Positions 36,213 through 39,491 of a DNA stretch of 63,118 nucleotides are shown one piece after another; position 1 is the stretch's first letter, and every line of letters begins with the position of its first letter. Source of the DNA: Chlorobiaceae bacterium (lineage in GTDB: Bacteria > Bacteroidota > Chlorobiia > Chlorobiales > Chlorobiaceae); contig JAAXXR010000001.1 in NCBI GenBank assembly GCA_013334335.1, positions 97,688-160,805 of the forward strand, in the 5' to 3' direction. The notes under the pieces were generated by a model. The model was not told where the DNA came from. It made no database searches and saw only the letters and a program-made list of their open reading frames with translations. Both the position numbers and the translations under genes were made by a program.

Positions 36213-37631
36213 ATGGAACTGGGTAAAACGAGAAACGTACACATCGTCGGCATCGGCGGAGCGGGCATGAGCGCCATTGCCGAACTGCTCCTGAAATCCG
36301 GATTCTCGGTCAGCGGCTCGGACCTCTCATCGGGAGAGGTGACCGAAAAGCTTCGGGAGCATGGTGCCGTGGTCTACCAGGGGCATCGCGCCGAGCAGGT
36401 CGGCTCGAGCGATGTGGTCGTCTACTCCTCTGCGGTCCGTCCCGAAAGCAATGTCGAGATCCTTGCCGCCGAGAAGCTGGGGATCCCGGTCATCAAGCGT
36501 GACGAGATGCTCGGTGAGATGATGCGCTACAAGTACGGTATCTGCGTCTCCGGTACGCACGGCAAGACCACGACCACGGCCATGATCGCGACGATGCTCA
36601 TCGATGCCGGCGAGTCCCCCACCGTGATGATCGGCGGGGTCTCCGATTTCCTGAAGGGGAGCACCGTGGTCGGGGAGGGCAAATACATGGTGATCGAAGC
36701 CGACGAGTACGACCGTGCATTCCTGAAACTGACGCCGACGGTCGCCGTGGTCAACAGTCTCGAATCAGAGCACATGGACACGTACGGCACCATGGACGAG
36801 CTCCGTTCCAGTTTCGCCCAGTTCGCCAACAAGGCGCCGTTTTACGGAAGGGTTGTCTGCTGCGTGGACTGGCCGGAGGTCAGGCGGCTGATACCGCGTC
36901 TCAATCGTCGCTGCACCACCTTCGGCATCGAGGAACCTGCGGACGTGATGGCCCTGGATATCGTGCTCGGCGAGTCCGGTTCCCGTTTCACGGTCCAGGC
37001 ATTCGGCCGTCGATACGAAGAGGTGCGGCTTGGTGTGCCGGGACGCCACAACGTGCTCAACTCACTGGCGGCGTTTTCCACTGGTCTCGAACTCGGCCTC
37101 GAGCCCGAGCGCATCATCGCCGGACTCGGCAGGTACAGCGGTATGCGCCGTCGTTTCCAGATCAAGTTCACGGGCCATGACGGGCTGCTGGTCGTTGACG
37201 ATTACGCACACCACCCTTCGGAGGTCAAGGCGACGGTCCGCGCGGCAAGGGAGGGGTGGAAAGAGCACCATATCGTAGCGGTGTTCCAGCCGCACCTCTT
37301 TTCGAGAACCGCGGAGTTCGCCGACGAGTTCGGATGGGCCCTGTCGAGGGCCGACACGGTCTATGTCGCCGGGATCTATCCATCGCGCGAGCAGGCCGCA
37401 GACCATCCTGGTGTCACGGGAGAGCTGGTCGCCGAAGCTGCCCGCAAGGCGGGGGCCAAGCAGGTAGTCTATGTCGCCGACCGTGAAGCGTTGCTCGCGG
37501 CGCTCCAGCCGCTGGCCTCGGGAAAAAACCTGATCCTGTTCATGGGCGCTGGTGACATCACCCACTCGGCTACCCGGTTCGCCGCCGATTGCGGCGTTGC
37601 CGGAAGCGCTGGAACCTCGGTCGGGCAATGA
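36213..37631 (+). CDS. murC: UDP-N-acetylmuramate:L-alanine ligase
   Basis: MurC adds L-alanine to UDP-MurNAc, the first step of stem-peptide building. The N-terminal [15 protein letters not shown] and the ATP loop [12 protein letters not shown] identify it, and [13 protein letters not shown] comes later. The length of 472 aa is normal. A GGAG site precedes the ATG, which lies 13 bases after murG. The stop overlaps the start of the MurB-like gene (ATGA). Confidence 0.97.
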
Positions 37632-38572
37632 TTTCGACCGGCGAGCTGTTCCGGCTGGTCAGGGGCCCGATCACCGTAGCCGAGCCCCTGGGCCCCTACA
37701 CCGGGCTCCGCATCGGCGGCACGGCGGACTATTTCATCAAACCCCGTGATCGTCAGGATCTGTGCCGTGCGTTCGGCTATTTCAGAAAGCACGGTTTTCC
37801 GTTCTTCATCCTCGGCCGGGGCAGCCGCCTCCTGGTGCATGAGGAGGGGTTCCGGGGCACGGTCATCGCCACCGAGTACCTCGATCGTCTCATCATCGAC
37901 GGAGAACAGGTGGAAGCCGATGCGGGAGTCTCGATGCCGGTGCTGGCCGATCGGATATCCAGGGCATCACTGGGCGGGCTCGGCAGTTTCGGGCGATGGG
38001 CCGGTACGGTTGGCGGTGCCCTCTGCCTGGCTGAGCGCAAAGAGGGCGGCGAGCTCCCGGAATGTCTCGAGTGGGTGGACGTCCTGCGAAACGGACGGAC
38101 CAGGCGCCTCTGCAACGGCGAGCTGCATGCCGGCATCAGGGCCCGAGGCGCTGAGGCCGATGTCATTCTTGGCGCCGGATTCAGGTTCCACCGCCTCTCA
38201 GGCCGCGAGCGTCATGCGTTGCAGAAAGCCGACGCCGCCGTATATCCTGATTTGCCGGTTGATCCCGGTGCGGAGGGCGCCCTTTCAGGCCGGGTATTCA
38301 GGGACCCGCCGATCCTGCCCGGTCAAACCGGCGTTTCGGCCGGAGAGCTTCTTGACGCTTGCCGGTTGCGGGGCAAGCGGTGTGGCGGGGCTTCGTTCTC
38401 GGAGCTCGACGCCAACCGCATCGTCAACCGAGGCGACGCCTCTTCGATCGATGTGCTCAACCTGGTGCGGCTTGCCAGGGAGTCGGTGCATGCACGGTTC
38501 GGGCTCCGGCTCGAACTTGAACTGGTCCTTGTCGGTTATAACATGAACGGAAACCATGGCGCAATCATCTGA
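37628..38572 (+). CDS. MurB-like protein with degenerate catalytic site
   Basis: MurB reduces UDP-GlcNAc-enolpyruvate to UDP-MurNAc. This 314-aa protein has the MurB fold pattern: [10 protein letters not shown] at the start, [19 protein letters not shown], and a C-terminal domain ending in [13 protein letters not shown]. But signature residues are changed. The GSxFKNP motif with the catalytic serine reads GRVFRDP, putting Arg at residue 222. The usual MNAGA after GTVGGA is missing ([10 protein letters not shown]). The FAD-site GSN is GSR, and the SExHANFIVN pattern reads [10 protein letters not shown]. The frame is intact and reading is continuous with murC and ftsQ, so it is not an obvious frameshift. 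It may be inactive, altered in function, or a rare variant of MurB. Confidence 0.75.
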
Positions 38573-39491
38573 CCCCATCGGCCGCGAGTCCGGCCTGCCC
38601 GGAGACCCTGAGGGTCAGGGGCGGAGCGTACCCGGTTCCGGCAAAGGAAAAGCTCGCCGTCTTCTCGGCTCTCTGCCGGTCATCGCCGCGGCGCTGCTGA
38701 TGCTGGTTGCCGCCATTGTCGCCCTGGCCTGGTACGCTTCCGTGTGGAAACAGGAGGTCAAGGTCGCCAGGGTTGTGGTCAGTGGCCTTAACCTCCTTTC
38801 CCGCCAGAAGCTTGAACATTCGCTGAGTGCCTTCACCGGCAGGAAGCTGCTCGAAGTCCGGGAGGAGGAGCTCCGCCGGGCGCTTGCTTCGGAGCCATAC
38901 ATCAAGGAGATGAAAATCGGCCGTGAGCTGAACGGGGTCATACGGGTCACCGTGACCGAACGCCTGCCGCTCGCGACGACCTTTTTTCAGGGCCAGAGGA
39001 TGATCATCGACACGGATGGCCTGCTGTTGCCGGACAACGCGGTTTCCGCCAGGTTCCATCGTCTTCCGTTTGTGTCCGGCGTCAGCGGCACCGTGACGGC
39101 AAAGCCCGGCGTCTGGCGTATGCCCCGGGAGGACGCCCGCATGCTCGAACAGATGATTTCAGCTTTTTCCGAGTCGGATTACGCTGGCCTCATGGTTCGC
39201 GAAATCCATCTTGTCCCCGCGAACCAGACATGGTTTCAGGCTTCGGGTTCGCCCATCCGATTTATTCTTGGCAATGAGGGCAACTTCAAGGAAAAATTGA
39301 AAAAATTCGAGATATTCTGGCAAAAGGTCATTGCAAAAAAGGGGCTCGATTGTTATGAGTCGGTTGACCTTAGATTCCGCGAAAGAGTGTTCGCACGTGA
39401 GCCTCAGATTGCGGGCTCATCTCCGGTCCCGCCTGAACCCGCGCCAGCAGCCCCTGACTCGCTTCCGGCCATAAAGCCAGTACCCCGGTGA
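38556..39491 (+). CDS. ftsQ: Cell division protein FtsQ
   Basis: FtsQ links early and late divisome proteins. The 311-aa protein has a charged cytoplasmic tail, one transmembrane helix (VIAAALLMLVAAIVALAW, about residues 45-62), a POTRA domain (KVARVVVSGLNLLSRQKLE) and a beta domain. A Pro/Ala-rich C-terminal tail follows. It starts inside the end of the MurB-like gene (17-base overlap) and overlaps ftsA by four bases. Confidence 0.9.
   Translation: MAQSSDPIGRESGLPGDPEGQGRSVPGSGKGKARRLLGSLPVIAAALLMLVAAIVALAWYASVWKQEVKVARVVVSGLNLLSRQKLEHSLSAFTGRKLLEVREEELRRALASEPYIKEMKIGRELNGVIRVTVTERLPLATTFFQGQRMIIDTDGLLLPDNAVSARFHRLPFVSGVSGTVTAKPGVWRMPREDARMLEQMISAFSESDYAGLMVREIHLVPANQTWFQASGSPIRFILGNEGNFKEKLKKFEIFWQKVIAKKGLDCYESVDLRFRERVFAREPQIAGSSPVPPEPAPAAPDSLPAIKPVPR

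Follow-up and report, generated by a model that had tools for sequence, protein, structure and literature searches.

In the window analysed here, a stretch of 63,118 nucleotides from a genome of the family Chlorobiaceae, the place between murC and ftsQ in the dcw cluster is occupied by an intact ORF of 314 amino acids whose product is a MurB homologue with altered signature residues. The locus raises the questions of which protein makes UDP-MurNAc in this organism and why the ORF is still there. A first-pass annotation, made from the sequence alone, had placed it as a murB overlapping both neighbours, and this placement holds, the start sharing an ATGA with murC and the ftsQ start lying inside the 3' end. 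The same annotation had left three answers side by side: a second MurB elsewhere, other chemistry, or conversion into a structural or regulatory member of the cluster. Matches to the upstream gene, murC, were found in all 61 genomes searched. The features of the locus, where the ORF is called the relic, are as follows.

36213..37631, + strand: murC (UDP-N-acetylmuramate--L-alanine ligase), 472-aa ORF directly upstream, overlapping the relic
37628..37631, + strand: ATGA start/stop overlap of relic and murC (putative translational coupling), the same 4 nt in 9/9 full-length relics
37628..38572, + strand: relic, probable MurB-like pseudoenzyme derived from the native dcw murB, 314 aa (Pfam, PDB sequence search, alignment, fold model)
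37628..37882, + strand: N-terminal FAD lobe I, residues 1-85 (omega 0.028; 88% mean amino acid identity, 6 orthologues)
37826..37828, + strand: Arg67 for the Asn of GxGSN, FAD pyrophosphate loop (alignment)
38000..38020, + strand: AGTVGGA FAD loop (canonical PGS[VIL]GGA), glycines retained, following MNAGA lost (alignment)
38228..38569, + strand: C-terminal substrate/catalytic lobe, residues 201-314, relaxed (omega 0.22)
38291..38293, + strand: Arg222 codon at the catalytic Ser position, E. coli Ser229 (alignment)
38399..38428, + strand: [10 protein letters not shown] (canonical SxKHANFIVN; alignment)
38519..38521, + strand: Glu298 codon at the catalytic Glu position, E. coli Glu325, kept (alignment)
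38556..39491, + strand: ftsQ, start overlapping the relic 3' end; adjoins murC directly where the relic is absent

A MurB homologue with a degraded active site

The relic matched the Pfam families MurB_C (E = 3.5e-17) and FAD_binding_4 (E = 2.7e-10) above cut-off, and a PDB sequence search matched it to 4pyt (E = 4.6e-33). Modelling, which the first-pass annotation had proposed, gave a predicted MurB fold across the whole length (AlphaFold, built from related loci; pLDDT 80), with TM scores of 0.75-0.77 to the MurB crystal structures 4pyt, 3tx1 and 1hsk (0.77 to 1hsk and 3tx1). The relic is like MurBs of the S. aureus/Listeria kind, represented by these structures, in its whole-length homology, dcw site after murC, predicted fold and FAD-site glycines. 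It is unlike them in that the Ser, the Asn of GSN, MNAGA, the Tyr of YR and HANF are replaced, and it scored under the NCBIfam equivalog cut-offs (170.9 versus 259 and 119.2 versus 144.5 bits). Relatives of the protein in phages were distant, with less than 60% identity.

The catalytic serine is the proton donor of MurB, and the S229A substitution in the E. coli enzyme severely impairs substrate reduction. The structure of that mutant has been deposited (1uxy), and the role of the serine is restated in PMC10058398. To judge its signature residues, the relic was aligned with canonical MurBs from dcw clusters within its order. The catalytic Ser was replaced by Arg222 (GRVFRDP), GSN by GSR (R67), PGS by AGT (residues 125-127), HANF by DANR (261-264) and the Tyr of YR by Ile, and MNAGA was missing after GTVGGA. 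All the changes listed in the first-pass annotation (GRVFRDP, GSR, loss of MNAGA, an altered HANF motif) were therefore recovered, and no Ser was found at the proton-donor column in this alignment, one of the two observations that the annotation had named as speaking against it.

The catalytic Glu was kept in the window copy (E298), being Gly or Asp in five of the seven other orthologues covering the site. Across the eight orthologues, taken in the order G000 (the window genome), G006, G007, G019, G017, G004, G018 and G005, the Ser column read R, R, G, R, K, R, S, K and the Glu column E, E, G, G, G, G, D, E. Such variation at both columns indicates that catalysis is not what selection maintains in the relic. 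By contrast, the FAD-site glycines G63, G65, G126, G129 and G130 were invariant from working MurBs through to shortened relics of 181 amino acids described below, suggesting that the relic may still bind flavin.

A fused MurB elsewhere in the genome

Exactly one other MurB was found in the same genome, a protein of 527 amino acids encoded on contig C116.

L001:922-2502 (G000:C116), also L192 and L195: second MurB, fused to a C-terminal domain

Its signatures are intact (GKGSNML, RMN, GYK-T, PSCGSTFKNS, SEHHANFIFN and the C-terminal Glu), and it clears TIGR00179 (155.1 bits) but sits under the NF010480 cut-off. The C-terminal domain, of about 220 residues and mainly beta, bears a motif like ELF-YLEFE-P-G-W-A-RF--PR that is common to fused MurBs of the Oligoflexia. 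This domain had no sequence match in the PDB, and the sole, weak Pfam lead was CBM9_2 (E = 0.23), in one of 20 members.

The fused, long-frame MurB was present in 83 of the 86 Chlorobiaceae genomes, the other three being incomplete (66-92%). In a sample of 247 genomes of the phylum, the extra domain occurred in 55/55 members of the family and 0/192 others. Order outgroups had a single MurB, canonical and downstream of murC. As most members of the family lack any other MurB, the fused enzyme must carry the reaction, and on gene content it must be the C116-type protein that now makes UDP-MurNAc. The second MurB proposed in the first-pass annotation is hence real, and it is a property of the whole family.

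The C116 protein and its Oligoflexia/Silvanigrellales homologues share the MurB family with the relic and presumably the reaction that the native gene once performed. The C116 protein and the relic are 25% identical over the MurB part, and the former differs in its intact Ser and Glu, its extra domain and its other origin.

Origin of the fused MurB

Beyond the family, a scan of genome contigs turned up this fusion twice, in a genome with the label Silvanigrellales and in another labelled 'Proteobacteria'; NCBI taxonomy places Silvanigrellales within the Oligoflexia, Bdellovibrionota. About 14 of 58 genomes of the surrounding class contained the fusion, and most of the others an ordinary unfused MurB. 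In a phylogeny of 44 MurB domains (IQ-TREE), the second MurB of the family clustered with the Oligoflexia fusions (support 98/95), beside unfused Oligoflexia MurBs. The window protein, whose stem was long (1.1 changes per site), clustered with native MurBs from its phylum (98/90). Given this grouping with Oligoflexia/Silvanigrellales fusions and the absence from the 192 other genomes of the phylum, the fused MurB probably arrived as a xenologue and displaced the native gene. The nesting in the tree suggests the direction of transfer, its simplest reading being a donor among the Oligoflexia, or an unsampled relative, and entry into the ancestor of the family.

Natural replacement of the catalytic Ser by Cys (GCIFKN, GCVFKN) was seen in one order-outgroup MurB (L071:157-1095) and in those unfused Oligoflexia MurBs that were inspected (L216-L223).

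Graded loss of the native gene in relatives

The interval between murC and ftsQ was read in 35 stretches from 34 genomes of the family. Loss of the native gene is graded. A full-length relic was found in eight of the 86 family genomes (G000, G004, G005, G006, G007, G017, G018 and G019), and a protein search of all 86 genomes yielded no further full-length copies. In three genomes, all of one clade, the relic was cut to 181 amino acids, and at all other family loci read it was absent, with ftsQ directly after murC (for example in G003). Mapped onto the second-MurB tree, these states require four changes. One survey notes that dcw clusters of the FBC superphylum lack murB (PMC8871954).

A ninth full-length relic, in a second murC-murB copy, lies on a 3.7-kb contig (G004:C12; L039/L106) and is close to the G018 copy; it is possibly contaminating. 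In order outgroups, a gene of 143-148 amino acids with an aspartic-protease-like motif separates murC from murB, an interval that the family of the window no longer has.

L068:219-665 (+ strand); L069 and L070 (- strand): DTGATGC-motif gene of order outgroups, murC-murB interval

Selection on the relic

Omega was estimated with an IQ-TREE codon model (GY+F3X4) on six species (five for ftsA). Whole-gene values were 0.12 (relic), 0.15 (ftsQ) and 0.012 (ftsA); the MurB part of the second enzyme gave 0.066. These estimates come from divergent sequences with synonymous sites near saturation. Decay as a pseudogene was rejected, omega being 0.12, not near 1, with no stops in the eight orthologous genomes.

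Along the relic, omega rose from 0.028 (residues 1-85) through about 0.09 (86-135) and about 0.11 (136-200) to about 0.22 (201-314; 0.225). The second MurB showed the opposite order, 0.093 in the N-lobe and 0.045 in the C-lobe. Amino acid identities were 54% (N) and 62% (C) among canonical MurBs of the order, versus 88% (N) and 61% (C) among relics. The constraint on the two lobes of the relic is thus inverted relative to that of a working MurB. The closest pairs agreed, with dN/dS of 0.033/0.17 and 0.023/0.47, and omega for the 181-aa copies was 0.078. Conservation of fourfold sites was 0.54 in the relic N-lobe versus 0.41-0.45, with 0.58 in ftsA and 0.47 in ftsQ. Part of the constraint on the N-lobe may accordingly concern DNA, RNA or codon use, but fourfold-site constraint alone cannot yield a low omega.

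Combined, the alignment, the omega values and the predicted fold display what marks a pseudoenzyme, namely catalytic residues gone with fold and selection kept.

A probable role for the displaced gene

The reading we favour, and hold to be probable, is that the relic is the native dcw murB, displaced by the fused MurB and now serving as a non-catalytic scaffold or regulator. The ORF would be the vertically inherited murB of the cluster, which was relieved of its essential task once the family's ancestor had gained the fused enzyme, probably from Oligoflexia; its lack of catalytic residues would follow from the second MurB having taken the job over. Once free of catalysis, the native copy would have been lost in most species, trimmed to the FAD domain in some, and retained at full length in the clade of the window, catalytically dead and still translated. 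What is maintained is the N-terminal FAD lobe, together with a putative translational coupling by which the protein would be made in step with MurC. Strong conservation of the front part suggests that the relic, presumably expressed and devoid of MurB activity, probably does something other than catalysis. It is most likely a pseudoenzyme with a structural or regulatory FAD lobe, perhaps as a still flavin-binding subunit of the Mur/divisome machinery. In Caulobacter, MurB is reported to co-localise with MurC, MurE, MurF, MraY and MurG, and MurB-MurC fusions exist (PMC6420597), which makes it reasonable to propose a scaffold or regulator acting close to MurC and the divisome. The structural or regulatory member envisaged by the first-pass annotation is compatible with the purifying selection on the N-lobe and the coupling to murC, and favoured by them, the role itself being one that we infer. 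Since sister species live without the relic, this role would be dispensable or lineage-specific.

The main rival, unlikely in our judgement but the strongest of the alternatives, is that the relic is decaying and acts as a mere translatable spacer coupling murC to ftsQ, its protein being without function. The ATGA overlap is kept in all nine full-length relics, the catalytic lobe is relaxed and the gene has been lost repeatedly among relatives; moreover, where murB sits within the dcw cluster is reported to matter in B. subtilis (Real and Henriques 2006, cited in PMC8871954). A spacer, however, needs no amino acid constraint, and residues 1-85 are held more tightly than the N-lobe of the working second MurB; the 181-aa copies are constrained too, and where the relic is lost ftsQ simply adjoins murC. 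Conversion to a new catalytic activity, or to a different ligand, on the FAD-binding scaffold appears improbable: invariant FAD-site glycines and a fold predicted intact would suit it, yet no fresh conserved polar cluster was seen replacing the active site, and constraint is weakest in the catalytic lobe, which the 181-aa copies lack.

Still less credit can be given to a relic that works as MurB with a different proton-donor chemistry, despite Glu298 in the window copy and the natural Ser-to-Cys replacement in presumably working MurBs (G041, unfused Oligoflexia). The donor column holds R, G, K or S, the Glu column is mostly G or D, the substrate motifs are lost, and a complete MurB is encoded in the genome and is the only one in most relatives, so that the other chemistry of the first-pass annotation finds little room. 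An artefact of assembly or annotation, such as a chimeric contig or a frameshift, was rejected, its probability being negligible: although the genome is a draft of 130 contigs, independent genomes carry collinear orthologues of 53-71% identity without stops.

Pseudoenzymes left by xenologous gene displacement are known to lose the catalytic site and to keep fold and constraint, and the relic resembles them in each of these respects. Both phenomena are known kinds; a search of open-licence papers on Chlorobium murB or on MurB as a pseudoenzyme returned nothing on point, and no comparable MurB relic turned up there. Beyond the earlier annotation, the analysis adds displacement by a probable xenologue, the inverted lobe constraint and a loss by degrees among relatives. 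What is unusual, and can be tested, is the inversion of constraint: it sets MurB catalysis apart from another role in what appears to be a natural separation of the catalytic job from any other job, and offers a case in which a non-enzymatic role of MurB in assembly of the Mur complex or the divisome can be tested. A practical caution is that the dcw 'murB' of green sulfur bacteria should not, by position alone, be named the MurB of the cell or a drug target.

A more general and decidedly tentative idea is that the FAD lobe at the N terminus of MurB also serves the Mur/divisome machinery without acting as an enzyme, a second role unmasked by displacement; the lobe would survive in full-length, 181-aa and possibly 86-aa forms. 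The last of these is a stand-alone protein of 86 amino acids, homologous to MurB residues 1-83, whose GxGSN loop reads NxKGR.

L107-L117, for example L108 and L109 (- strand) and L110:804-1064: 86-aa N-lobe protein (homology to MurB 1-83)

It was present in 16 of the 16 g2 (Chlorobium-like) genomes examined and not in g1, with an omega of 0.03, and its gene comes after that of a GNAT-like protein in all five loci inspected.
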